The notes below the pieces were generated by a model, which searched no databases, was not told the origin of the DNA, and saw nothing but the letters and a program-made list of their open reading frames with translations. This document shows positions 3,944 to 49,075 of a stretch of DNA of 64,000 bases, one piece after another (within the stretch, counting starts at the first letter, position 1; the number at the start of each line of letters is the position of its first letter). This DNA comes from Longibaculum muris (GTDB lineage Bacteria > Bacillota_I > Bacilli_A > Erysipelotrichales > Coprobacillaceae), in contig NZ_SMCQ01000001.1 of the NCBI RefSeq assembly GCF_004343035.1, positions 1 through 64,000 of the forward strand, in the 5' to 3' direction. Made by a program: the position numbers and the translations under genes.

Positions 3944-4372
3944 ATGAAACATGAGAACTTTAGTAGAATTATGGAAGAATTACGGACAGTACACAAGCTT
4001 TCAACAAAACTTGTTGCTTCACGTTTTCATAATTTAACACCAGAACAGGCAAAACTGATGTTTTTAATTCATGATAATAAAATGAATCAAAAAGAAATAG
4101 CTCAAAAACTTCATATTACTGAGGCAACTCTTTCAGTAAGAATTAAACGTTTGGTTGATTCGGGGTTAGTCGAAAGAGAAATTGATAGTCAAGATAAGCG
4201 CAATAATAAAATTGTCTTATCGCCGCAGGGGGAAGAAACATTAAATGGTATGCAAAAAGAGTTTGATTATGTCTATGAAGTTATTTGTCGAGAAATGACT
4301 CAGGAAGATTTTGAAACTGTTTTGAATATCATTAAAAGAATGCAAAAAAATATAAAGGAGGAAATGGAATGA
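3944..4372 (+). CDS. MarR family transcriptional repressor
   Basis: A 142-residue winged-helix regulator. The recognition region reads MNQKEIAQKLHITEATLSVRIKRLVDSGLVEREIDSQDKRNNKI, with the DxRxxx wing (DSQDKRNN) characteristic of MarR. Family members bind as dimers to short palindromes and release on ligand binding. The two palindromes in its own promoter imply autorepression and control of the two ABC genes that follow. Its stop overlaps the next start (ATGA). The ligand, possibly an exported drug or antimicrobial compound, is unknown. Confidence 0.92.
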   Translation: MKHENFSRIMEELRTVHKLSTKLVASRFHNLTPEQAKLMFLIHDNKMNQKEIAQKLHITEATLSVRIKRLVDSGLVEREIDSQDKRNNKIVLSPQGEETLNGMQKEFDYVYEVICREMTQEDFETVLNIIKRMQKNIKEEME

Positions 4373-6591
4373 TTAAGTTGCGTAAGTTTGCTTATAAATT
4401 CTGGTTACCAATTCTTTTATGTATTGGATGCGTTTTTATCCAATCTCAATCAGAATTGGCTTTACCAGATTATATGAGTAAAATTGTAACCAATGGAATT
4501 CAAGCAGGTGGTTTTGATAGTCCAGTTGCTGATGTATTTAGTGATGAAACTTTTAAACATCTTTTGGTTTTTGCTGATGATGAACAAAAGAAAACCATTG
4601 AATCAAGTTATACTTATACAAGTTATGAAAACTTAAAAGATAACTTTAAAGAAGAATTCCCTAAACTTAAAAATGCTTATGTTTTAAATGATCTATCTAA
4701 AGATGAAAAGAGTCAATTAGAGAGTGCATTAATTAAACCAATGTTGATGGTATCTTCAATTGATTCAATGGATAAAAATTCCAAAGAATATCAAGAAAGA
4801 TTTGGGAATTTACCAGCTGGTATGGATATTTATCAAGTATTTTCAATGATGGATGCGAATACCAAAAAGGAAATGACAAAGAAAATTGATACACAAATAG
4901 ATGCAATGGGTGAATCAACAATGTTGATTGCTGGTGGAAATGGTGTAAAGACTGAATATCTTGCATTAGGTGCTGATGTTGATAGTATTCAAACACGTTA
5001 TATTCTTTCATCTGGTTTAATTATGTTGGCAATTGCTTTGTTAGGTTCAGTTGCAGCAATGATTTCTGCCTTTTTATCTTCACGTGTTGGAGCAGGTGTG
5101 GCTAGAGATTTAAGAAAAGCTGTTTTTGAAAAAGTTGAAAGTTTTTCTAATACTGAATTTAATAAATTCTCAACAGCTTCATTAATTACGCGTACAACAA
5201 ATGATATTACACAAGTACAAATGTTAATGATTATGTTGCTTCGTATTGTTTTATTTGCTCCAATGATGGGTGTTGGTGCATTATATAAAGCAATTACTCA
5301 TTCAACATCAATGACTTGGATTATTTTGCTTATTTTATTAGTTATTAGTGGCGTATTGTTTGTCTTAATTAAGGTTGTTATGCCTAAGTTTAAAATTATT
5401 CAATCATTAATTGATAGATTGAACTTAACAATGCGTGAAAATCTAAGTGGTGTCTTGGTTATTCGTGCTTTTGGTAATGAAAAGCATAGTGAAGATCGCT
5501 TTGATAGAGCCAATGATGATTTGACAAAAGTTAACTTATTTGTTAACCGTGCAATGGCGACATTAATGCCAATTATGATGTTTATTATGAACATTGCGAC
5601 TGTGTTAGTTGTTTGGGTTGGTGCTCAACAATTAGACTTAGGAAATATTGCGATTGGGGATATGATGGCCTTTATCCAATATGCAATGCATATTATTATG
5701 TCATTCTTATTTATTGCGATGATCTTTATTATGATTCCTCGTGCAAGTGTTGCTGCTGGCAGAGTTTATGAAGTTTTATCTACTGATTTATCAATTAAAG
5801 ATCCAGATGATGCAAAAGAATTTAATGCATCTCAAAAAGGATTAGTAGAATTTAAAGATGTCACTTTCCAATATCCAGGGGCTCATGAAGCTGTTTTAAG
5901 TCATATTAGTTTTACTGCTGAGCCTGGTAAGACAACTGCATTTATTGGTTCTACTGGTTCAGGTAAATCGACTTTAATTAATTTAATACCACGTTTTTAT
6001 GATGTTACTGAAGGTAGTGTAACAATTGATGGGGTAGATGTTAGAGATGTTAAACAACACGATTTAAGAGAATTAATTGGGGTTGTTCCACAAAAAGGTG
6101 TCTTATTCTCAGGAACAATTCGTTCAAATCTTCAATATGGTGCACATGATGCAAGTGATGAAGAATTAAGCGAAGTGATTCGTATTGCCCAAGCAAAAGA
6201 ATTTGTCGATGATAAACCAAAAGGGTTAAGTGAAGAAATTTCACAAGGTGGAACAAATGTTTCTGGTGGTCAAAAACAACGTTTAGCGATTGCTAGAGCA
6301 TTAGCTAAAAATCCAGAAATCCTTATTTTTGATGATAGCTTCTCAGCTTTAGACTTTAAAACCGATGCTATTTTAAGAAAAGAATTAAGTAAGCTCACAG
6401 AAAAAACTAAAAATACAGTTTTGATTGTTGGTCAAAGAATTGCATCAATTATGGATGCTGATCAAATTATTGTATTAGATAAAGGAAAAATTGTTGGAAA
6501 AGGAACTCATAAGGAACTGATGGAAACTTGTCAGGTATACCAAGAGATTGCTTATTCACAACTTTCAAAGGAGGAATTAGCAGATGCCTAG
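4369..6591 (+). CDS. ABC exporter half-transporter, degenerate catalytic site subunit
   Basis: A 740-residue membrane-ATPase fusion of the type IV (B-family) exporter fold. After TM1 (about residues 10-30) comes an unusually long, mostly polar extracytoplasmic insert to about residue 205, then five more membrane helices. The ATPase has Walker A GSTGSGKST (527-535) and signature VSGGQ (631-635). The Walker B ends IFDDS with Asp656 in place of the catalytic Glu, and the switch His is Gln689 (GQR). This pattern matches the degenerate-site subunit of heterodimeric exporters such as BmrC or LmrC. It is translationally coupled to MarR (4-base overlap) and overlaps the second half-transporter by 8 bases. 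Confidence 0.93.
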   Translation: MIKLRKFAYKFWLPILLCIGCVFIQSQSELALPDYMSKIVTNGIQAGGFDSPVADVFSDETFKHLLVFADDEQKKTIESSYTYTSYENLKDNFKEEFPKLKNAYVLNDLSKDEKSQLESALIKPMLMVSSIDSMDKNSKEYQERFGNLPAGMDIYQVFSMMDANTKKEMTKKIDTQIDAMGESTMLIAGGNGVKTEYLALGADVDSIQTRYILSSGLIMLAIALLGSVAAMISAFLSSRVGAGVARDLRKAVFEKVESFSNTEFNKFSTASLITRTTNDITQVQMLMIMLLRIVLFAPMMGVGALYKAITHSTSMTWIILLILLVISGVLFVLIKVVMPKFKIIQSLIDRLNLTMRENLSGVLVIRAFGNEKHSEDRFDRANDDLTKVNLFVNRAMATLMPIMMFIMNIATVLVVWVGAQQLDLGNIAIGDMMAFIQYAMHIIMSFLFIAMIFIMIPRASVAAGRVYEVLSTDLSIKDPDDAKEFNASQKGLVEFKDVTFQYPGAHEAVLSHISFTAEPGKTTAFIGSTGSGKSTLINLIPRFYDVTEGSVTIDGVDVRDVKQHDLRELIGVVPQKGVLFSGTIRSNLQYGAHDASDEELSEVIRIAQAKEFVDDKPKGLSEEISQGGTNVSGGQKQRLAIARALAKNPEILIFDDSFSALDFKTDAILRKELSKLTEKTKNTVLIVGQRIASIMDADQIIVLDKGKIVGKGTHKELMETCQVYQEIAYSQLSKEELADA

Positions 6592-8416
6592 AGGACCAAT
6601 GGGACGTGGTCATGGACCCGCAACAGAAAAAGCTAAGGACTTTAAAGGAACAATCAAAAAATTATTTGCTTACTTAAAACCTTATTATGTTAAATTTATC
6701 TTTATTATTATATTTGCCGCTGGTTCAACTGTATTTTCAATCTTTGGACCAAAGATTTTAGCCAAAGCAACTGATAAATTAAGTGAAGGTATTATGGCTA
6801 AAGTCAGCAATACTGGCGGAATTGATTTTACAGCAATTTCACAGATTTTAATTTTTCTAGCATGTATTTATTTATTAAGTGCATTGTTAAATTATATTCA
6901 AGGATTTATTACTTCAGGTATTTCTCAAAGAGTGGCTTATGATTTTAGAAAAGCAATTTCGCAAAAGATGGATCGTTTACCATTAAGTTATTTTGATAAA
7001 CATTCAAGTGGTGATACTTTATCACGTGTCACAAATGACGTTGATTTAATAGCTCAATCATTAAATCAAAGTATGACACAAATTGTCACTTCATCAGTCA
7101 CAGTTATTGGTATTTTCATTATGATGTTAACAATTAGTGTTCCAATGACATTAATGGCATTATGTGTTTTACCAGTTTCAATGTTCCTGATGACAAGAAT
7201 CATGAAAAGAACTCAAAAATATTTCTTTAGACAACAACAAAGTTTAGGAAATGTGAATGGTCATATTGAAGAAATGTATGGGGCTCATCAAGTTGTTAAA
7301 GCTTTTAATGGAGAAGAAGATTCAGTTGAAAAATTTGAAGTTTTCAATAATGATTTATATGAATCAGCATGGAAATCTCAATTCTTCTCTGGTTTAATGC
7401 AACCATTAACTAACTTTGTAGGAAACATTGGATATGTTGGAGTCTGTTTATTAGGTGGATTCTTAGCATCAGGAAATGCGATTTCAATTGGTGATATTCA
7501 AGCCTTTATTCAATATGTCCGTCAATTCAATCAGCCAATTACCCAATTAGCTCAAATCATGAATCAATTACAATCAACTGCAGCAGCAGCTGAACGTGTT
7601 TTTGAATTTTTAGATGAATCTGAATTGGAAGAAGAAACACCAAGAATTACGCATGAACAATTAGCTAAGATTGATGGTAGTGTGACTTTCAATCATGTTA
7701 ATTTCGGATATAATCCAGATAAAACAATTATTAATGATTTTTCTATGCATGTGCATGCTGGACAAACTGTTGCGATTGTTGGTCCAACCGGGGCTGGAAA
7801 AACAACAATTGTTAAATTATTAATGAGATTCTATGAATTAAATAGTGGTAATATTTTAATTGATGGTCATGATATTAAGGATTATGCAAGAAGTGATTTA
7901 AGAAGTTTATTTGGTATGGTTCTTCAAGATACATGGTTATTTGGTGGAACGATTAGAGAAAACTTAAAATATGGTAAGTTAGATGCGACTGATGAAGAAA
8001 TGGAAAAAGCATGTCAATTGGCTTATGCTGATCACTTTATCAACACATTAGAAGATGGTTATGATACTGTGATTAATGAGGAATCAAATAATATTTCTCA
8101 AGGTCAAAAACAATTATTAACAATTGCAAGAGCATTCTTAGCTGATCCAAAAATCTTGATTTTAGATGAAGCAACTTCTTCAGTTGATACCAGAACAGAA
8201 GTCTTAATTCAAAAAGGTATGGATAAGTTAATGGAAGGTCGTACAAGCTTCATTATTGCCCATCGTCTTTCTACAATTCGTGATGCGAATACAATTATTG
8301 TTATGAGAGATGGAGACATTGTTGAACTTGGTAACCATGAATCATTACTTGCAAAAGGTGGCTTCTATGCTGACTTATATCATTCACAATTTGAATCAAG
8401 TAAAGAAGATGAATAA
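6584..8416 (+). CDS. ABC exporter half-transporter, catalytic subunit
   Basis: A 610-residue partner of the preceding gene: a Gly/Pro-rich N-terminus, six membrane helices and an ATPase with Walker A GPTGAGKTT (about 400-408), a canonical Walker B LILDEATSSVD with catalytic Glu529, and the switch His560 (AHR). Its signature is ISQGQ (504-508) instead of LSGGQ. The composite site formed by this protein's Walker motifs and the partner's VSGGQ is therefore complete, while the opposite site is degenerate on both sides. This is diagnostic of asymmetric heterodimeric exporters (multidrug or peptide). Control by the upstream MarR is inferred from the operon. Confidence 0.94.
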   Translation: MPRGPMGRGHGPATEKAKDFKGTIKKLFAYLKPYYVKFIFIIIFAAGSTVFSIFGPKILAKATDKLSEGIMAKVSNTGGIDFTAISQILIFLACIYLLSALLNYIQGFITSGISQRVAYDFRKAISQKMDRLPLSYFDKHSSGDTLSRVTNDVDLIAQSLNQSMTQIVTSSVTVIGIFIMMLTISVPMTLMALCVLPVSMFLMTRIMKRTQKYFFRQQQSLGNVNGHIEEMYGAHQVVKAFNGEEDSVEKFEVFNNDLYESAWKSQFFSGLMQPLTNFVGNIGYVGVCLLGGFLASGNAISIGDIQAFIQYVRQFNQPITQLAQIMNQLQSTAAAAERVFEFLDESELEEETPRITHEQLAKIDGSVTFNHVNFGYNPDKTIINDFSMHVHAGQTVAIVGPTGAGKTTIVKLLMRFYELNSGNILIDGHDIKDYARSDLRSLFGMVLQDTWLFGGTIRENLKYGKLDATDEEMEKACQLAYADHFINTLEDGYDTVINEESNNISQGQKQLLTIARAFLADPKILILDEATSSVDTRTEVLIQKGMDKLMEGRTSFIIAHRLSTIRDANTIIVMRDGDIVELGNHESLLAKGGFYADLYHSQFESSKEDE

Positions 8417-35068: not shown

Positions 35069-35109
35069 ATATCTGTTTGTCAATACAGAGCTAAATAGAG
35101 GTGACTAAA

Positions 35110-36414
35110 ATGAAGAAAGTTATTACTTATGGAACATTTGATTTGTTTCATTTAGGACATTATAATATTTTAAAAAGAGCAAAAGAGTATGGTGATTACT
35201 TAATTGTTGGTGTAACAAGTGAAAGTTATGATATTGAAAGAGGAAAATTATCAGTTAAAGATAGTTTGACAACGCGAATTCAAAATGTTATGAACACTGG
35301 TTTTGCTGATGAAGTTATTATTGAAGAATATTTAGGTCAAAAGATTAGAGATATTATTAAATATGATATTGATGTTATTGTTATTGGAGCAGATTGGAAA
35401 GGAAAATTTGATCATCTTAGACAATATTGTGAAGTTGTTTATTTAGAGCGAACGAAAAATATTTCAAGCACTCAAATTAGGGAAGAAAAAAGTAATATTT
35501 ATAATTTTGGTGTGATTACTGATACTCTTGATGATAGAGACTTGCTTGATGAAATTAAATATGTCAGTGGATTGCATGTTGAAAGTGTTTTTGCTAATGA
35601 TGCATCAATTTCTGAAGAATTCTGTGAAAAATATCAAATTAATAAACATTTTACACAATGTGATGAATTTTTAGATAGTGTAGACATTGTATTAATCAAT
35701 TTAGATGTAGAAGATCGATATTCATATATTAAGAAAAGTCTTGAAAAAGGGAAACATGTCATCTCTGCTTCACCTATTGCACTTTCTGTAGATGAACATA
35801 AAGAGTTGTTTGAGATTGCTGAAAAAAATAAAGTCATCTTAATGGAAAATATTGTAACTGTATATTTAAGAGCTTTTATGCAAATCCTATGGATGGCTAA
35901 TGGTGATACTTTAGGAAAGATTTTAAATGTAAAATGTGCTATTTCATTAGAAAACTTTGAACCACAAAAATCTTTTTATGAAGCCTTGGTATTAGGAGTT
36001 GTCATGATTATTAAGTTATTGGGTCAAGATTCTGAATGTGTACATGTAACACATTATCAAAATGATGCTCATTATCTTCATGTATTATTTAAAAATCAAG
36101 ATTCAATTGGAACAATTGAAATTACGAATAATATTGAATTGAAAAATGAATTGGTTATTGTTGGAGAAAAAGGAACAATTGTTGTTGAAGATGATTGGTG
36201 GAATACGGGATATTTTGAGTTTAAGAAAATATCTAAGAAATTTGATAAAAGATATAGTTATAATTTTGATGGAAATGGGTTTAGATATGTGTTACAAGAA
36301 TTATTGATTATGTTAAGTGATAATCGTATTGAAAGTACACGTTTCTTTAAAGATGAATCTGAAATTTTAATTCAATTATTAGAGAAAATGAATATTAAAG
36401 GTTTAGATGATTAA
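35110..36414 (+). CDS. Fusion: cytidylyltransferase + Gfo/Idh/MocA-like domain
   Basis: About 434 residues. Residues 1-130 form a second TagD-like cytidylyltransferase with HLGH (14-17), GADWKGKFD and RTKNISST (114-121). From about 133 to the end there is a Gfo/Idh/MocA-like fold, but the dinucleotide glycine motif is unrecognisable (FGVITDTLDD) and the family's EKP site is SASP (219-222), so the redox lysine is missing. The second half may bind a ligand rather than catalyse, or may reduce the precursor of the CDP-polyol. ATG 35110 follows AGAGGTG; an in-frame GTG nine bases earlier is less likely. See the findings. Confidence 0.75.
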   Translation: MKKVITYGTFDLFHLGHYNILKRAKEYGDYLIVGVTSESYDIERGKLSVKDSLTTRIQNVMNTGFADEVIIEEYLGQKIRDIIKYDIDVIVIGADWKGKFDHLRQYCEVVYLERTKNISSTQIREEKSNIYNFGVITDTLDDRDLLDEIKYVSGLHVESVFANDASISEEFCEKYQINKHFTQCDEFLDSVDIVLINLDVEDRYSYIKKSLEKGKHVISASPIALSVDEHKELFEIAEKNKVILMENIVTVYLRAFMQILWMANGDTLGKILNVKCAISLENFEPQKSFYEALVLGVVMIIKLLGQDSECVHVTHYQNDAHYLHVLFKNQDSIGTIEITNNIELKNELVIVGEKGTIVVEDDWWNTGYFEFKKISKKFDKRYSYNFDGNGFRYVLQELLIMLSDNRIESTRFFKDESEILIQLLEKMNIKGLDD

Positions 36415-36424
36415 ACAATTATAG

Positions 36425-36470
36425 ATAAACTAGGAAGTCAATGGTGATTATCTTCCTAGTTTATTTTCTT
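36425..36470 (+). terminator. Terminator after the fusion gene
   Basis: Perfect 13-bp stem ATAAACTAGGAAG/CTTCCTAGTTTAT with 14-nt loop and T-rich tail. Confidence 0.85.
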
Positions 36471-36579
36471 AGAGCCGTTATTTTTTAAGGATATCATCGC
36501 TTATATCTTGAGTAATATTAGTAGAATATAGTATAATATTGGTGATATTTGGCTATAAAAATAATGCTTTTATGAGAAA

Positions 36580-36608
36580 TTGACAAATATCAATGATAGG
36601 TATATAAT
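36580..36608 (+). promoter_or_regulatory. Consensus sigma-A promoter
   Basis: Perfect -35 TTGACA (36580-36585), 17-bp spacer and perfect -10 TATAAT (36603-36608). It drives the GNAT-aminotransferase-LicD group. The region 36471-36579 shows nothing else recognisable. Confidence 0.85.
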
Positions 36609-36642
36609 CAAGTGAAAATTGTGTAAGAAAAGAGTGAGCAAA

Positions 36643-37431
36643 ATGTTAATTGAATGCAAAGAAAATGAGAAAAGTAAGATTTTAGATTATATTGGAAAGG
36701 ATTATGGAAAATGTTTGTATATCTTTATTGATTTATGCAAATATGGTTTGGATAATGAAAACTTTAATGCATGGATTCAATATAATGATAAATCTGAAAT
36801 AATCGCTGTTGTTACTGAATACTATAAAGGAATTCAGATTTATAGCAAAGATGTTAATCTTGATGCAAAGGAAATTGCTGAGTTTGTTTTACGTAAAAAT
36901 CCTCCTGTAACATTAGGAATGAAAGAAACAATTGATAAAGTTAGAGAATATATGCCAGGATATGAAGAAGAACTTGGAACAGTTGGACAATTAAAACAAT
37001 TACAAGTGTCACCAAATCCTAAGGCTTATTCTGCAAGTGTTGAAGAATTAAAAGAAATTGTTGAAATTTTAGCAGAGGATGAAGGAATTGGTAAACCATA
37101 TGGTTTTGATTCTTTATATCAACAATATAAAGAAAGAAAAGAAGAAAACTTTGGTCGAAACTTTATATTGCGTGATGAAGAAACAAATGAAATTGTTTGT
37201 CATGCAGGAACTTATGCAGAGCTTCCAGAATTAGCTGTTATTGGCGGTGTTATTACATCTCCAAAGTATCGTGGAAAAGGATACTCAAAAGAGACATTAG
37301 CAGCAATTTGTGAGGAATTATTACATGAAGGAAAAGATGTTTTTTCTTTCTACTATATTCCTTCTGCAACAAAAATGCATCAAGGTGTAGGTTTTGAAAA
37401 AATTGGCGATTGGGCTAAATTAATTAAATAA
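36643..37431 (+). CDS. GNAT family N-acetyltransferase
   Basis: About 262 residues. The C-terminal half has the GNAT acetyl-CoA motif [24 protein letters not shown] and a terminal strand pair ([19 protein letters not shown]). The N-terminal half is a less conserved domain. I start at ATG 36643, about 28 bases after the predicted transcription start; a TTG 24 bases earlier is less likely. It may acetylate a sugar or amino group in the polymer made by this island, but the acceptor is unknown. Confidence 0.78.
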
Positions 37432-37474
37432 ATGGAAGGTGAAGATGATGAGAAGAATGAGAGAAGGAGAACCA

Positions 37475-38548
37475 ATGATTAATTTTACTGTTGGTCCTGT
37501 ACAGTCAAGTCAAACTGTATTAAATATTGGAGCAGAGCAAGTTCCATACTTTAGAACAAATGAGTTTTCTGAAATTATGTTAGAAAATGAAGCATTAATG
37601 AAAAAATTTACAAATGCTAAAGAAGATGCAAGAGTTGTTTTTATGACTGGGTCTGGAACTGCATCTATGGAAGCTTCAATTGTTAATTTCTTTGATGAAA
37701 GAGATAAGATACTTGTTATTAATGGTGGTAGTTTTGGCCAAAGATTTGTAGATTTATGTGAACTTTATCAATTAAATTATACACAAATCAAATTAGAAGT
37801 TGGTCAAGCTTTGACATCAGAACAATTAGCTCAATATGATAATCAAGGATTTACAGGATTTTTAGTTAATATTCATGAAACATCAACAGGTGTTCATTAT
37901 GATATTGATATAATCAGTGAGTTCTGTCAAAAAAATAACATTTTCTTAGTTGTAGATGCAATTAGTTCATTTTTAGCAGATAAAATTGATATTAGTGGAT
38001 CAAAAATTGATGTGATGATTACAGGGTCTCAAAAGGCATTAGCATGTCCTCCAGGGGTATCTGTGATTGTTCTTTCAAAAAAAGCTGTTGATAGATTAGA
38101 AGATTATCCATCAAAATGTATGTATTTAAATCTAAAATCTGCACTAAAAAACGGTGAAAGAGGACAAACACCTTTCACTCCAGCAGTAGGAATATTACGT
38201 CAAATTCATGCTCGTTTAAAAGAAATTGAGGCTAATGGTGGAGTAGATGTAGAAATTGCTCGGGTAAAAGAGTTGGCAGAAGATTTTAGAAATAAAATTA
38301 AAGATTTACCTTTTGAAATTACTTCTGAATCTATGTCAAATGCTGTAACACCTTTACATCCAACAACATGTTCAGCATATGAAATCTTTTTGACATTAAA
38401 AGATGAATATGGTATTTGGGTATGTCCAAATGGTGGAGAACTTGCTGATAAAATTATGCGTGTTGGACACATTGGTGCCTTAAGTTGTAAAGATAATGAT
38501 ATCTTAATTGCAGCTTTAAAGGATTTACAAAGTAGAGGAATTATTTAA
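37475..38548 (+). CDS. Class V PLP aminotransferase, AEP-transaminase/AGXT-like
   Basis: About 357 residues of fold-type I aminotransferase. It begins [12 protein letters not shown], typical of the class V alanine-glyoxylate/2-aminoethylphosphonate transaminase group. It has [29 protein letters not shown] and the PLP lysine in [15 protein letters not shown] 37475 follows AAGGAG by 6 bases; earlier ATGs at 37445 and 37457 are possible. Substrate is unknown: an amino group donor for a polymer precursor, serine/alanine chemistry, or a phosphonate. No PEP mutase is in the window. Confidence 0.75.
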
Positions 38549-38597
38549 AAGTAAGGATATTTTAGGAAGATATTAAGCTTCAAGAGGAGGAAAAAAA

Positions 38598-40268
38598 GTG
38601 GATCAGTTGCAAGCAAATTTATATAAACTTTTGGCTGAACTTGATGAAATATGTAAAAGAAATGATGTTACATATTATTTAGCTGGTGGAACAGCATTAG
38701 GTGCTATAAGAGGTGGAGGATTTTTACCTTGGGATGATGATATAGATTTATATATCACAAGAGAAAACTGGAATAAATTAGTGAAGGTTATGGAGACACA
38801 AACACCAGAGAATAGAGTTTTTGTTTGTGTTGAAAATGATGATATTTATTGTAATCCAGTAGGAAGATATGTTGATAAAGAAACAACTGTCATGATGAAA
38901 TCTCAATTATTGTGTGGGAAAGCTTGTGGACAATTAATAGAGTTTTTTGTTATGGATCCTATGCCTTTAGGGGAAGATGCTAAATGGAATCATAGAAAAT
39001 TAGTGAAAGTTTATACTGAACTTCTTTCTCCTTATTTTGTTGTTAATAGAAATATCTTGCATGAGAATACAGAGTTTGATTTTGATTTATACAACAAATA
39101 TTATAAAAAGAGTTTAATTTTTGGTAAGAAAAAAGTCCTTAATGAATTATTAGAAAAAATTACATCAACTACAACTGAGAATAGTGATTGCTATTGTATG
39201 CGATGGGGAACAAGAACACTAATGTATGGCATTGATTTATTGGGTGAACCTCGTATGGAAAAATTTGAGGATGCTATGTTTCCAGTTCCAGCCAAGCAAG
39301 AAGAAGTTGCACGAATTGCATATGGTGATAGTTGGATGTATGTGCCAGAGGGATCTGGTAAAGTAGTCCATAACTTAGATAAAGATTTAATGACACCATT
39401 TCAACAATATGTTGATTTGTATAAGCCTTTGTTGAATGAAACAAAATTAATGAGAAATTATAAAAAGAATAAAAGAATTCGTGCAAAAGCACTCTATAAG
39501 AAAAATGAGTTTAAATATAATTTTGCTTGTTCGCGAGCTAAGATTGCTGCCAAACATATTGTGGAAAGTGATTATGATATTAATGTTTTAAGAGAGTTAT
39601 TAAAAAATAAAGCTTTTGCTCAACTACAAAAACATTTAAGCTATTTCTATTCAGTTCAATTTAATCCAGATATTAAGGTTGATAACATTTTAGTTCCAGT
39701 ATCTGATGAATATATTTATATTGCAGTCATGAATCACGTATTACAAGGTGCTTATTATAAAGTGAACAGTATTATGAGTGCAAGAAAAAATATAAATAAA
39801 CCTTTAACAGATGAATTACAAGAAGCAGATCGTATTATGCAATTTTGTAAACAACTTTCAATTGCAATTTATGATAAAAAAGATATTCAATTAGTTGAAA
39901 ATATTTTACAAGAAAATACTCAATATTCACACATGATTCCTGATTATGCTCGTGGTGAACTATGGGTAATGTGTCAAAAAGCAAATACAAATGCTGACTA
40001 TGAAAAGCTTCTTAAAGAAGCTAAAGATAGAGTGGCTTTATTTGTGGATGATGGTGAAATCATGAGATATGAAGCTTATGCGCTTTATATGTTAGACAAA
40101 AAAGATGAGTCAAAAGAAAAATATATAGATGCTATTCAAAGAACAAGAAATGGATTTGTTTGGAAAGAAGTCAATGATTTATTTGGAATTGATGCTTATG
40201 ATGTCATTGATAATCAAGAAGATGATGATGAAAATGAAGATGTAGAGGATACGAAGAATGATGATTAA
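38598..40268 (+). CDS. LicD family phosphotransferase with C-terminal extension
   Basis: A 556-residue protein. The first ~270 residues are a LicD nucleotidyltransferase-fold domain with YYLAGGTALGAIRGGGFLPW followed by DDDIDL (metal-binding Asp46, 48, 50). LicD proteins transfer phosphocholine or related phospho-groups from CDP-linked donors to wall or lipid polymers. The remaining ~280 residues are helical, repeat-like and end in an acidic tail. It starts with GTG after AGGAGG. It overlaps the degenerate LicD by 11 bases. Confidence 0.85.
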   Translation: MDQLQANLYKLLAELDEICKRNDVTYYLAGGTALGAIRGGGFLPWDDDIDLYITRENWNKLVKVMETQTPENRVFVCVENDDIYCNPVGRYVDKETTVMMKSQLLCGKACGQLIEFFVMDPMPLGEDAKWNHRKLVKVYTELLSPYFVVNRNILHENTEFDFDLYNKYYKKSLIFGKKKVLNELLEKITSTTTENSDCYCMRWGTRTLMYGIDLLGEPRMEKFEDAMFPVPAKQEEVARIAYGDSWMYVPEGSGKVVHNLDKDLMTPFQQYVDLYKPLLNETKLMRNYKKNKRIRAKALYKKNEFKYNFACSRAKIAAKHIVESDYDINVLRELLKNKAFAQLQKHLSYFYSVQFNPDIKVDNILVPVSDEYIYIAVMNHVLQGAYYKVNSIMSARKNINKPLTDELQEADRIMQFCKQLSIAIYDKKDIQLVENILQENTQYSHMIPDYARGELWVMCQKANTNADYEKLLKEAKDRVALFVDDGEIMRYEAYALYMLDKKDESKEKYIDAIQRTRNGFVWKEVNDLFGIDAYDVIDNQEDDDENEDVEDTKNDD

Positions 40269-43720: not shown

Positions 43721-43740
43721 CGAAAACTGAGGTGGAAGTA

Positions 43741-44937
43741 ATGAAAATATTGAGAAAATTTAAAAAGTTAGCAGGTCAAATTATTAAAATCCTTTATAGA
43801 TTAGTTTATAGACTTATTAGAGTTGATGATAAATTAGTGATTTTTATTTCATTTCATGGTAGAGGATATTCAGATAATCCAAGAGCTATTTATGAACAAA
43901 TGAAAAAAGATGAAAGATTTAAAGATTATCGTTTTATTTGGTTTATTAAAAACCATGAGAAAAAGAATATTAAAATAGCTGGTGCTGAAATAAAAGAGTA
44001 TTTTAGTATTCCTTATTTTTATTATTTATCAAAAGCAAAATATTGGGTTATCAATTGTAAGATGCCTGATTATATTTGTAAGAAGCCAAGCCAAATTTAT
44101 TTACAAACATGGCATGGGACACCTTTAAAACGTTTAGGACATGATATTATTGCGCCTAAAGATGCAACATTCTACCGTTCAGGTATGACTTACAAACAAA
44201 TGTGTGCAACATATGATATTGATGTTGCTAGATATAATTATATGATTTCTCCTAATAAATTTTGTACAGAGGTTTTCCAAACAGCATTTGGAATTGATCG
44301 CCAACGTCTCATAGAAACAGGTTATCCGAGAAATGATTTTATTACTAATGCAAATGAAGAAGATATAAAAAAACTTAAACAAAAATTTGATTTACCATTG
44401 GATAAAAAAATTGTTTTATATGCACCTACATGGCGTGATAATTCTTATGTTGCAGCGGGTTATACATTTGAATTAAAAGCAGATTTTCATCAATGGAAAG
44501 AGATATTAGGTGATGACTACATTGTTATTTTTAAACCACATTATTTGATTATTAATAATTATGCTAATGATCATTCTTTAGATGGCTTTTTATATTCTAT
44601 AAGTGCTGATGCTGAAATTAATGAATTGTATGTATTAAGTGATATTTTAATTACTGATTATTCAAGTGTTTTCTTTGATTATGCAGTGTTAAATAGACCA
44701 GTGTATTTCTATATGTATGATTTAGAGGAATACAAAGATGAATTAAGAGGTTTTTACTTAGATATTCATACTGAATTACCTGGGAAAGTTTATGAAGATG
44801 AAGAAACTATGTTAAAAGATGTTAAAAATGAGATTTATGATTATTCATATTTGAAAATTTTTAATGAGCGATTTAATTCAGAACAAACTGGAAATTGTGC
44901 TCAAAAAGTTATTGATATTGTTTTTCAAGGAAAATAA
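43741..44937 (+). CDS. CDP-glycerol glycerophosphotransferase (TagB/TagF family)
   Basis: A 398-residue GT-B-type polymerase or primase that adds glycerol phosphate from CDP-glycerol to a lipid-linked acceptor. Signatures: FHGRGYSDNPRAIYEQM, LQTWHGTPLKRLG (catalytic His), ETGYPRND, VLYAPTWRDN, FKPHY and LITDYSSVFFDYAV. A positively charged amphipathic N-terminus suggests membrane association. ATG 43741 follows GAGGTGG. Its CDP-glycerol donor would come from TagD at 34685. Confidence 0.92.
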   Translation: MKILRKFKKLAGQIIKILYRLVYRLIRVDDKLVIFISFHGRGYSDNPRAIYEQMKKDERFKDYRFIWFIKNHEKKNIKIAGAEIKEYFSIPYFYYLSKAKYWVINCKMPDYICKKPSQIYLQTWHGTPLKRLGHDIIAPKDATFYRSGMTYKQMCATYDIDVARYNYMISPNKFCTEVFQTAFGIDRQRLIETGYPRNDFITNANEEDIKKLKQKFDLPLDKKIVLYAPTWRDNSYVAAGYTFELKADFHQWKEILGDDYIVIFKPHYLIINNYANDHSLDGFLYSISADAEINELYVLSDILITDYSSVFFDYAVLNRPVYFYMYDLEEYKDELRGFYLDIHTELPGKVYEDEETMLKDVKNEIYDYSYLKIFNERFNSEQTGNCAQKVIDIVFQGK

Positions 44938-45024: not shown

Positions 45025-46125
45025 ATGGGAATTCAAAAGACAATTTTAAATTTTATTTTAACTATAGAATCTTTTTTTCTTTCTTTTTTTAAAATTAAAA
45101 AAGAAAGAATCACCTTTATATCTTTAGAATCAGAAAAATTAGAATTAGATTTTAAAAAGATATATGATGAATTGAATCAAGAAGAATTTGATGTTCGATT
45201 ATGTTTAATTAAATATCATAAAGATTTATGGGGACAATTTTTATATTTTATAAATTGTATGAAACAATTATATTATATATATACATCACGTATTATTATA
45301 TTACATGATAATAATTATGTTGTTTCACATTTTAAAAGAGAAGGTGTTGTTGTTCTTCAAGTTTGGCATGCTTGTGGAGCTATTAAAAAGTTTGGAAATG
45401 TTATTGATAGACAATATCCAATAGCAAACTATGATTATGTACTAGCAACTTCATCTTATTGGAAAGAACCATATAGTCAAGCTTTTAGTGTAAAAAGCGA
45501 AAATGTTTTACCAATTGGTATGCCTAGAACTGATGAACTTTTTAATAACAATTGGTTAGAAGAAAAACATAAAGATTTATATTTTAGATATCCACAATTA
45601 AAAGATAAGAAGATTATTTTATATGCTCCAACATTTAGAGGTAATATCTATAAAGGCTTTTCAGCAATTGAATTTGATGCACTTAAAATATTAGAACAAT
45701 TAGATTCACAATATGTTATTCTATATAAATATCACCCATTAATGGGGAATTATCAATTACCTGATCATCCACGCATTATCAATATGAATCATGAAGATAC
45801 CCATGCTTTATTTAGTATCACTGATTATTTAATATCGGATTATTCATCAATTGTGTTTGATTATATGATTTTAAAGAAACCATTGATTTTCTTTACACCA
45901 GATTTAGAAGAATATAGTCAAAGTTTAGGGGTTTTTGTTAATTTGGAAAATTTGGGGTATCCTATATGTTATAGTGAAGAAGAAATTGTATCATCTATTT
46001 GTCAATATCAAGTATCTCAAAAACAAATGGAAGATATGAAAGATTTGTTTTTTACATATCAAGATGGTGAAAGTACTACACGTGTTATTCGTTTTATGAG
46101 GGGGATTATTCATGAAGAAAATTAG
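45025..46125 (+). CDS. Second CDP-glycerol/ribitol glycerophosphotransferase-family protein
   Basis: A 366-residue TagB/TagF-family enzyme, divergent from the preceding one: LQVWHACGAIKKFG replaces TWHGTPLKRLG but keeps His, and GMPRTDEL, ILYAPTFRGN, YKYHP and LISDYSSIVFDYMIL are retained. The N-terminus has a hydrophobic Phe-rich stretch that may associate with membrane. The primase versus polymerase roles of the two cannot be assigned by sequence alone. Its stop overlaps the ATG (46112) preceding the dockerin/MBL gene. Confidence 0.85.
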   Translation: MGIQKTILNFILTIESFFLSFFKIKKERITFISLESEKLELDFKKIYDELNQEEFDVRLCLIKYHKDLWGQFLYFINCMKQLYYIYTSRIIILHDNNYVVSHFKREGVVVLQVWHACGAIKKFGNVIDRQYPIANYDYVLATSSYWKEPYSQAFSVKSENVLPIGMPRTDELFNNNWLEEKHKDLYFRYPQLKDKKIILYAPTFRGNIYKGFSAIEFDALKILEQLDSQYVILYKYHPLMGNYQLPDHPRIINMNHEDTHALFSITDYLISDYSSIVFDYMILKKPLIFFTPDLEEYSQSLGVFVNLENLGYPICYSEEEIVSSICQYQVSQKQMEDMKDLFFTYQDGESTTRVIRFMRGIIHEEN

Positions 46126-47355
46126 TATTAAATTTTGAGTTTTTTAATATGCATTTCTACTACTGTTTTATTTAATGTACAGAATGTCCATGCAGTTAGT
46201 GGATTGAAAGTTCATTATATTGATGTAGGTAGCGGAGATGCTATTTATTTGGAATGTGATGGTGTCAATATGTTGATTGATGGCGGATATATTAGTCAAT
46301 CTGATCGTAAAGAAGATGAAGCATCAAGAGGTGTATTAGAGCATCTTGTACACAATGATTTACAAAATACAGTGAATGAAAATGATGCAGATTTTATATC
46401 ACAGCTACGAGTGATTTTAAAAGAAAATGATAATAGTGATGTAACAAAGTATTTAGATTCATTAGGTGTTAAACATATAAATTATATTGTTTCAACACAT
46501 CCACACTATGATCATATAGGTGGTTTGTTACATGTTATTAATAAATATACATATGATCATATCTATTATAATGGACATGACTATACAACAAGATATTATA
46601 GATATTTTAAAATGTTAGCAGAAGATAATGTAAGTTCTGGAAAAGTAAGAGCGGCCTTACAAATTCCTCAACAAAATGATACATTTCAATTAGGAAGTGC
46701 AAAAGTAACTGTGTTAAGTGATCAAACAATTGATTATACAATGGCTAATGGTACAGCGATAAATAATGGTTCAATTGTTTTAAGAGTAGATTATAATAAA
46801 CGTTCATTTCTTTTTACTGGTGATGTTCAATATGCGGCACAAAAGAAAATAATTGAAACAAAAGGAAGTTCTATTTCTAATATTGATGTCTTAAAAGTTC
46901 CTCATCATGGTCATACCAATAGTGTGTATGGGAATACTGGTCACTCAGAAAATTATGAATTATTTGCTAAAGTAAATCCAGTTATTAGTATTGTACAATG
47001 TGGGATTCGTAATACTTCTGTTAGTTTGCCAACTAATAGAGTTTTAAAAGATTTATCAATGAGTGATGTTTATACAACTAAGAATCAAGGAAATATAGTT
47101 ATAGAATGTGATGGAAATTATATTAATGTTAAAATAAAGAATGAAATTGTTCATGGATTTGTAAAAGGTGATATTAATGGTGATGGTAAAATTACACCAT
47201 CAGATTATGTTATGGCTAGAAGACAAATTCTAGGAACGTTATCGTTAAAAGGAAATGGACGTGTAACTGCAGATATTAATGGTGATGGTAAAATATCTCC
47301 ATCTGATTATGTATTAATTCGTCGTCATATTTTAGGAACATATCATATTCAATAG
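46112..47355 (+). CDS. Secreted metallo-beta-lactamase (ComEC-like) protein with dockerin; frameshifted or recoded start
   Basis: The expected start ATG 46112, with GAGGGGG eight bases upstream, encodes MKKISIKF and meets TGA at 46136. The main frame continues from TTG 46135 as a signal sequence (SFLICISTTVLFNVQNVHAVSG) that lacks a basic N-terminus. One extra T in the T4 run would join them. The mature protein is a MBL hydrolase like the ComEC C-terminal domain: DVGSGDAIYL, H122-P-H124-Y-D126-H127, FTGDV, VPHHGHTNS. The last ~62 residues are a type I dockerin with two calcium loops (DINGDGKITPSDY and DINGDGKISPSDY). Residue numbers count from TTG. Either a frameshift, or a TTGA-coupled start. 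Confidence 0.75.
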
Positions 47356-47368
47356 GGGGAAATTATAA

Positions 47369-48643
47369 ATGAAAATGTTAAAGAAGTTTGAAATGATTGT
47401 TATGACAATATGCTTATGTCTAACATTACAATTAAAAATGGTAGGTGCTGCTGGAGTAAGTGTTTCTGCAAGTTCATCTAGTATTACCATAGGTTCATCA
47501 TTTAAAGTTAGAATTACTGCAAGTGATTGTTATACAACAATTTCAACATCAACTAATAATGGTTCAATTAGTGGTGCACCCAAAGATATAGATAGTGGGT
47601 CAGCAAGTTTTACAGTAAAACCATCAAAGGTAGGTACCTGTACAGTCACAATAAGCGGAACATATGCTGCTTACTCAGGGAATACAAAAGATATTAGTTT
47701 TTCAAAAACTGTTACTGTTACGGTTAAAGATAAGGCATCAAAACCACAACCAACTACACAAACAACTACAACAGAAAAGCCAAAAGAAGATACACGTTCA
47801 AAAGAAAATGCTTTATCTTCATTAAGTGTCAATGAAGGGACTATATCTCCAAAGTTTAGTGCAAATACAACAAAATATACAGTAAATTTAGAAGGTAATA
47901 AAACAAAGATAAAAATTGATGCCAAGGCAAAAGATTCAAAAGCAAAAGTTTCTGGAACTGGAGAAAAAAATTTAAAAGTTGGAAAAAATACTTTTGTAGT
48001 AAAATGTACAGCTGAAAATGGAAGTACAAGAAATTATACAATCATTGTTAATGTTGATGAAAAACCACTCGTTTATACAGAATATGGAAAACAAAAATTA
48101 GGTGTGGTTAGAAATTTAGAAGGAGTAAATATTCCTGCTGGTTTTGAAAAATCTACGACTCAATTAGATGGTCAAAAGATTGATGCTTGGACAAATAAAA
48201 ACTTAAATCTAACAATTAGCTATTTAGTAGATGAACAAAATAAAAAGGCTTATTATGTTGTTGAAAATGGGAAAATTGCTTATGAATATCAAATTGTAGA
48301 TATTGATGATCGTCATTTTGTAATTGTACCAATTGATAATAAGTTAAAAGAACGTGAAGGTTTTCAATTCCAAAAAGTACAAGTTAGAGAAATTGAACTT
48401 GATGGATGGACATATCAAGATAAAGCTATGAAAAATTATGTACAAGTTTATTTAATGAATGAAAAAGGCGAAAAACATATTTATGATTATGAATCTACAG
48501 AAGCTCAATTACAAATTTATACAGAAGCAACAAAAGAAGAAAAAGGAATAGATGTTTTTATGGTAACAACTATTGTATTTGGTTTAACAAGTGTTGCTTT
48601 ATTAGGATTATCAATTTATTTGAAGAAAAAAACTAATTCTTAA
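47369..48643 (+). CDS. Membrane-anchored surface protein with Ig-like and cadherin-like domains
   Basis: A 424-residue exported protein: signal peptide to about residue 28, a Ser/Thr-rich Ig-like beta domain (about 30-120), a Thr/Pro/Lys linker (PQPTTQTTTTEKPKED), a cadherin-like beta-sandwich domain (about 148-232, LSSLSVNEGTISPKFSANTT ... NYTIIVNV), a further ~160-residue globular region, and a C-terminal membrane helix with basic tail. It is 13 bases downstream of the dockerin/MBL gene, so the two products probably act together at the surface. No true cohesin is recognisable, although the first Ig-like domain could be tested as a receptor. Confidence 0.75.
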   Translation: MKMLKKFEMIVMTICLCLTLQLKMVGAAGVSVSASSSSITIGSSFKVRITASDCYTTISTSTNNGSISGAPKDIDSGSASFTVKPSKVGTCTVTISGTYAAYSGNTKDISFSKTVTVTVKDKASKPQPTTQTTTTEKPKEDTRSKENALSSLSVNEGTISPKFSANTTKYTVNLEGNKTKIKIDAKAKDSKAKVSGTGEKNLKVGKNTFVVKCTAENGSTRNYTIIVNVDEKPLVYTEYGKQKLGVVRNLEGVNIPAGFEKSTTQLDGQKIDAWTNKNLNLTISYLVDEQNKKAYYVVENGKIAYEYQIVDIDDRHFVIVPIDNKLKEREGFQFQKVQVREIELDGWTYQDKAMKNYVQVYLMNEKGEKHIYDYESTEAQLQIYTEATKEEKGIDVFMVTTIVFGLTSVALLGLSIYLKKKTNS

Positions 48644-48742: not shown

Positions 48743-49075
48743 ATGAATAGGGGAGAAATTTATTATGCAGATCTATCTCCAGTTGTAGGAAGTGAACAAG
48801 GGGGATATAGACCAGTTCTTATCTTACAAAATAACAAAGGGAATAAATATTCAACAACAGTGATTGTGGCACCTATATCATCACGTATGACAAAAAATGA
48901 TTTACCAACACATGTTATTATTGAAACAGAATTTTTAGAAAAGAAATCAGTTATTTTATTAGAACAAATTAGAACAATTGATAAAAAAAGAATAGATGAA
49001 AAGTTAGGAAGTTTATCACAAAATTTAATGGAGAAAGTTAATTTAGCAATAAAAACAAGTTTAGACATAAGATAG
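48743..49075 (+). CDS. MazF/PemK-family endoribonuclease (NdoA-like)
   Basis: A 110-residue toxin-family protein: [40 protein letters not shown] and [11 protein letters not shown] are the hallmarks of MazF/EndoA ribonucleases that cleave mRNA at short sites. It has a good AGGAGGG ribosome site. No MazE/EndoAI-like antitoxin gene lies directly upstream, as the neighbour is a surface protein ended by a hairpin, and none lies downstream. It is therefore an apparently orphan toxin. Confidence 0.88.

Follow-up and report, generated by a model that had tools for sequence, protein, structure and literature searches.

The described systems closest to the gene pair reported here combine cohesins and dockerins. 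In C. perfringens, X82 cohesins sit on enzymes and join these to one another. This system is non-cellulosomal and has one cohesin per protein, according to the accessible part of its description (PMC12997984). In R. champanellensis, wall hydrolases also bear dockerins, and in the accessible sections of the report on the 'lyticome' idea they join the scaffoldin of a cellulosome (PMC6403190). For dockerin recognition, the accessible text of PMC6780208 gives positions 10, 11, 17, 18, and 22.

Two metallo-β-lactamase (MBL) proteins are related to the catalytic part. Pce/CbpE, the pneumococcal teichoic-acid phosphorylcholine esterase, is attached to the surface by a module of choline-binding repeats. 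Phosphodiesterase and nuclease activity are described for the ComEC domain, whose motif II has an aspartate where Pce has a histidine, as given in the accessible part of PMC8579336.

In the window, the whole 64,000-nucleotide stretch of Longibaculum muris DNA analysed here, an MBL gene with a dockerin end lies directly before the gene of a membrane-anchored protein with an Ig-like domain. We estimate a probability of roughly 0.78 that the two genes encode a private docking pair, in which the Ig-like domain would serve as the receptor that holds the enzyme of the adjacent gene at the membrane. The dockerin belongs to the same family as those of type I/II cellulosomes; in contrast to cellulosomes, there is a single cohesin-like domain per anchor, with a membrane helix, an adjacent partner gene, and enzymes of the cell envelope. 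The pair resembles the C. perfringens system in being apparently non-cellulosomal, whereas the cohesin would lie here on a non-catalytic membrane anchor and not on an enzyme. As compared with the R. champanellensis hydrolases, as far as these are described in the accessible sections, each enzyme here would have a small membrane receptor of its own. What may be new among cohesin-dockerin systems is a small receptor at the membrane that carries a diverged cohesin, is encoded beside the enzyme that it is predicted to hold, and belongs to no cellulosome. A literature search, thin on subscription journals, found no paper on this anchor-dockerin pair.

The window pair and the possible substrate of its enzyme

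The MBL-dockerin open reading frame (ORF), as listed, spans positions 46135..47355 (+ strand) and encodes 406 amino acids from a TTG start. It matches Lactamase_B (Pfam, E 5.7e-11) and, at residues 344-400 (47164..47334, +), the full length of Dockerin_1 (PF00404, E 1.6e-13 to 9.4e-13). The dockerin is of type I, with DxNxDGxxxxxD in two calcium loops, a helix behind each, and the Pfam match. Both loops are complete (DINGDGKITPSD, 47170..47205, +; DINGDGKISPSD, 47272..47307, +). The helix-1 stretch YVMARR (47206..47223, +) contributes Y, V, R, and R to the columns that co-vary with the Ig-like domain of the partner, and the helix-3 stretch YVLIRR (47308..47325, +) contributes the symmetric four. 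The TTG start comes right behind an in-frame stop codon. An ATG at 46112, in another frame, reads MKKISIKF and would restore the missing start of the signal peptide; at 46112-46150 the signal peptide is split across two frames, with MKKISIKF in one and the hydrophobic part in the other. Because this ATG is off-frame and the start is intact in relatives, there is either a frame break in the signal peptide or an assembly error.

The anchor ORF (47369..48643, +; 424 aa) begins 13 bases after the MBL-dockerin ORF. It encodes the N-terminal Ig-like domain (residues 28-122; 47450..47734, +), which is a predicted divergent cohesin on the basis of hhalign and co-variation. There follow a cadherin-like β-sandwich (47813..48052, +; Cadherin-like, E 1.7e-8), probably a stalk, a conserved C-terminal β domain without a Pfam family (48062..48532, +), and a C-terminal transmembrane helix (residues 396-423; 48554..48637, +). 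The AlphaFold model of the anchor has a pLDDT of 84.8 and contains both the β-sandwich at about residues 28-122 and the C-terminal helix. For the MBL, a structure model built from two sequences gave a pLDDT of 39.8. The earlier note had described a dockerin with two complete loops on an MBL beside an exported, membrane-anchored protein with Ig-like and cadherin-like domains, and the Pfam matches, the loops, and the structure model confirmed this arrangement. A MazF/PemK-like gene lies right behind the anchor (48743-49075) and is kept in all four MBL-type loci.

In sequence, the MBL is closest to ComEC (9ic4, E 6e-19), whose C-terminal MBL domain is its closest solved relative, and next to Pce/CbpE (12qj, E 4.6e-7). 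The ComEC model TIGR00361 matched with E 1.6e-17; at 62.9 bits against the NCBIfam cut-off of 190.05, the ORF is no full ComEC/Rec2 protein. In contrast to ComEC, the window MBL is stand-alone and exported, and has HPHYDH (46498..46515, +; canonical HxHxDH, as in Pce) in place of HxDxDH. The invariant HH of PHHGH (46903..46908, +) is presumably a further metal ligand, as in the MBL family. Like Pce/CbpE, the enzyme would be attached to the surface by an extra module, here the dockerin. The Pce-type HPHxDH is found in all four MBL-dockerin proteins, and HSDFDH in the genome's own ComEC. This ComEC is encoded separately (C15:64133-65800), which rules out a split ComEC. The designation 'ComEC-like' in the earlier note thus holds for the sequence but not for the metal motif.

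The window MBL gene forms the end of a teichoic-acid gene cluster. Its conserved neighbours are two CDP-glycerol glycerophosphotransferase genes, one TarF-like by profile matches (43732..44937, +) and the other directly upstream (45025..46125, +). The cassette of these two genes, the MBL-dockerin gene, and the anchor gene is kept in 4/4 genomes having it. The window cluster also contains a TagH-like exporter ATPase, a LicD-family gene, and a glycerol-3-phosphate cytidylyltransferase over the cut-off. At 35101-40268 it encodes a cytidylyltransferase-oxidoreductase fusion, a PhnW-like aminotransferase, and a LicD-family protein, which might point to an unusual phospho-decoration. The LicD and PhnW-like genes were not matched in the covered parts of the three other cassettes, and a link of LicD to the pair was therefore dropped. 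An MBL profile scan of 395 class genomes found, besides the window gene, only four distant relatives, in which no dockerin was seen.

Because of the Pce-type motif and the conserved cassette with two glycerophosphotransferases, cleavage of teichoic-acid phosphodiester bonds is the favoured activity, as a tentative assignment. The main rival activity is that of a surface nuclease acting on extracellular DNA, either to clear it or to feed on it, in the manner of the ComEC domain, which is the best sequence match and has the nuclease activity mentioned above. We consider a nuclease somewhat less likely, in view of the histidine of the motif in all four proteins and the fixed place of the MBL behind two teichoic-acid polymerase genes in all four genomes. 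Both features also speak against a cyclic-nucleotide hydrolase, another activity proposed in the earlier note.

Recurrence of the pair and co-variation of its modules

Anchor homologues were surveyed in 43 genomes of the window's family and were found at 24 places. All 20 complete Ig-bearing anchors adjoin a dockerin ORF, none of the three Ig-less homologues does, and the remaining place is cut by a contig end. In G019 and G031, which have an Ig-less anchor and no other, there is no dockerin match anywhere in the genome. A search of 395 genomes of the class gave matches in at least 93, cadherin-like-only matches included. Among the class matches listed, 56 places, almost all outside the family, were fetched; a match to profile position 427 or beyond was required, and places matching the cadherin-like part alone were left out. 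A public genome collection gave 54 loci, of which the 25 with the C-terminal domain were used. Removal of 15 duplicates left 90 distinct anchors.

A dockerin ORF lies beside 81 of these 90 anchors, which rules out chance neighbours. Among the nine unpaired anchors, Ig-less ones account for three and those at an edge of the available DNA for five; the ninth (L115) is a true exception. In the latter (4328-8266), an anchor with a Pfam cohesin has an upstream SH3/glucosaminidase-like neighbour without a dockerin. The dockerin gene is upstream in 79 of the 81 pairs, with its dockerin end abutting the start of the anchor gene, and the intergenic gap is -20 to +30 nt in 78 pairs. In L099 and L103, the dockerin is at the far end of the downstream gene. 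Dockerin_1 was found by Pfam in 79/81 partners. Their other domains include glucosaminidase (25), bacterial SH3 (37), and MBL (4), and GH25, amidase, and M6 peptidase in one partner each; many partners have none of these catalytic matches. Judged by their domains, the partners may often be cell-wall-cutting enzymes.

Other arrangements were also observed. In two relatives (L157 1340-6226; L158 1133-6067), a dockerin protein of 1324-1328 aa is directly followed by a short protein (292/312 aa) with a Pfam cohesin, a linker, and a membrane helix; the adjacency rule is the same and the anchor type is different. Dockerin-bearing GH25 lysozyme-like enzymes lie away from anchors at three places in one genus (L155 1701-2999; L156 556-1785; L041 1-909). 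Such an enzyme is also present in G024, where no anchor was found.

Dockerin distances (DOC) were compared with Ig-like domain distances (Ig), and the cadherin-like (CAD), C-terminal (CT), and catalytic parts were controlled for; L115 was left out of every test. The partial correlation DOC~Ig was 0.354 over 81 pairs (0/500 shuffles) and 0.615 within the family (n=20, 0/500). On 40 independent pairs, defined as non-overlapping paths in the CAD+CT tree, it rose to 0.727 (0/5000). For DOC~CAD the values were 0.016 (n=81, 175/500) and -0.115 (family, n=20), and the first of these led to rejection of the cadherin-like domain as dockerin partner. DOC~CT was weak, with 0.136 over all pairs (n=81, 1/500) and 0.391 on the 40 independent pairs (27/5000). 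Within the family it was 0.093 (n=20, 110/500), and the C-terminal domain was rejected as partner on this value. One single case shows a swap: the C-terminal domains of L013 and L017 are at a distance of only 0.07, yet their dockerins are at 0.50 and their Ig-like domains at 0.76.

The signal is concentrated in eight dockerin columns, four per repeat and symmetric (alignment columns 14, 15, 18, 19 and 48, 49, 52, 53), which correspond to positions 13, 14, 17, and 18 when counting starts at the first aspartate of the loop. They were first spotted on all 81 pairs and rank highest in each of two disjoint sets, the family (n=20) and the 61 others; because the family's own top eight are identical, the 61 others provide an independent test. 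In these, the eight columns correlated with the Ig-like domain at 0.612 (0/500), and the remaining dockerin columns at -0.015. The 95% shuffled maximum was exceeded against the Ig-like domain by 8/52 columns in the family and 12/58 in the others, and against the C-terminal domain by 0/52 and 1/58, respectively. No single Ig column exceeded the shuffled maximum in the family set. The co-varying face is that of helix 1 and helix 3. Two of the four positions (17 and 18) agree with the recognition positions in the accessible text of PMC6780208. The emphasis here is further along the helix than in cellulosomes, with 13/14 among the strongest columns and a weak signal at the classical positions 10/11.

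Co-variation might also arise by linked exchange, if dockerin and Ig-like domain were swapped together by recombination as neighbouring DNA, without binding each other. The abutting of dockerin end and anchor start in nearly all pairs would fit this, as would the correlation of the non-recognition dockerin columns on the 40 independent pairs (0.458, 13/5000). The anchor signal peptide, which is encoded between the two modules, also gave a weak signal in the family set (0.191, 24/500). However, its correlation with the dockerin was -0.022 over all 81 pairs and -0.028 among the 61 others (340/500), and over the 81 pairs the eight columns reached 0.583 against 0.010 for the remaining columns. L099 and L103 keep the match of YVKN and Ig-like domain even though the dockerin is at the far end of the downstream gene, and a GH25 enzyme on a different contig in G022 has the type of its own genome. 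Since the signal lies in eight columns and largely skips the signal peptide, this pattern argues strongly, not perfectly, against a mere joint exchange of neighbouring DNA, which we consider improbable.

The plugs (dockerins) of extra enzymes were also compared with that of the partner of their genome's anchor, whose Ig-like domain is the predicted socket. The G022 enzyme matches the anchor partner of its genome at 8/8 positions, the GH25 of G023 at 7/8, and the M6 peptidase of G009 at 8/8; for two of these three extra enzymes, a partner in a different genome fits equally well or better. These matches are supportive, not proof, that unlinked plugs may follow the socket of their own genome. In L043 (7390-10302), the gene on the other side of the anchor encodes an M6-type peptidase whose dockerin is of the same type, and one receptor may be shared by two enzymes there. 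Overall, the co-variation is strong evidence for a docking pair, at the level of sequence.

The Ig-like domain and the other dockerins of the genome

The Pfam cohesin model PF00963 has no match in the window anchor, a further difference from cellulosomes. In 8/82 anchors, the slot of the Ig-like domain is occupied by a PF00963 cohesin (Pfam, E 0.01 or better), and in 8/10 hand-picked anchor N-termini a Pfam cohesin is over the cut-off. The family's 20 Ig-like domains were aligned by hhalign with 30 cohesin-motif N-termini at 96.5% probability (E 7e-10), and a set of five sequences (four MBL-paired anchors and L015) at 94.7%. Cadherin-like, C-terminal, and Big_2 controls gave 0.2-2.5%, and the single cohesin on contig C16 of the window's genome gave 0.2%. 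The cohesin motif was a purpose-made regular expression, and the version for the hhalign set differs from that for the Fisher counts. In one family, a cohesin-motif partner was found for 0/9 dockerins with Y/F at position 13 versus 26/31 with L/M, counts that ignore relatedness.

In the fold search, the best matches of the Ig-like domain were intimin/invasin Ig domains (Z about 10). The C. perfringens cohesin 2w1n, the one cohesin among the fold matches listed, was at rank 36 (Z 8.6, 94 residues, 3.0 A), a low rank that is evidence for neither side. Because the intimin/invasin domains outrank it, the fold alone does not prove cohesin identity. We read the Ig-like domain as a probable shortened, diverged cohesin, for which the sequence link is good and the fold is neutral.

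A scan of the window's genome (3.17 Mb, 56 contigs) found three dockerins and one Pfam cohesin. On contig C10, a dockerin-bearing glucosaminidase is directly followed by a paralogue of the window anchor (39% identity). On contig C16, the Pfam cohesin lies with Big_2 repeats in a membrane protein, and the very next gene encodes a dockerin surface protein of 2243 aa; this is the third pair of the genome (L008, 4600-15164). Each of the three dockerins has a membrane-anchored β-sandwich protein encoded adjacent to it. Their signatures at four positions are YVRR (window), LLEK (C10), and AQLR (C16 neighbour). Docking of the window dockerin on the C16 cohesin, which is over the Pfam cut-off, with the Ig-like anchor doing something else such as wall binding, is very improbable, since the signature of that cohesin's own neighbour differs from the other two and, among 16 family genomes with the pair, only the window's genome has a Pfam cohesin.

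The earlier note had named a conventional scaffoldin elsewhere in the genome that would bind the dockerin as a finding that would count against its proposal. No cellulosome scaffoldin with several cohesins was found in the genome, where the sole Pfam cohesin is in the Big_2 protein and already has its own adjacent dockerin gene. The pair therefore looks like the surface-bound module apart from cellulosomes that had been suggested, and its dockerin probably has the Ig-like domain as partner.

Proposed docking at the membrane and its meaning

In the proposed docking, the exported MBL enzyme would fold its dockerin around two calcium ions, and the helix-1/helix-3 face would bind the N-terminal Ig-like domain of its neighbour. 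The cadherin-like and C-terminal domains may form a stalk that lifts this cohesin above the transmembrane helix. The anchored enzyme would be kept in the cell-wall zone and would not diffuse away; there it would most likely cut phosphodiester bonds in the teichoic acid whose synthesis is encoded just upstream. Plug and socket might evolve together, so that each pair would retain its own specificity, and a second enzyme of matching plug type might, in some genomes, use the same socket.

A broader reading, to which we give a little less than an even chance, is that Erysipelotrichia and related Firmicutes hold enzymes of the cell envelope in private membrane sockets, which would be short, fast-evolving cohesins of an unrecognised class. 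There would be at least a dozen plug types, two or three signatures might occur per genome, and unlinked enzymes would re-tune their plugs to the socket of the genome. The window pair would then be the first dockerin-borne teichoic-acid phosphodiesterase.

Dockerins are almost reflexively taken as parts of cellulosomes. Here the plug seems to tether the cell's own wall enzymes at the membrane, and many gut bacteria that lack a recognisable cohesin seem to dock wall enzymes in this way. If this is true, the 'orphan' dockerins in such genomes would gain a predictable partner, and nature would offer a ready collection of distinct plug-socket pairs. The retention of wall hydrolases where they are needed would then become a directly testable question.
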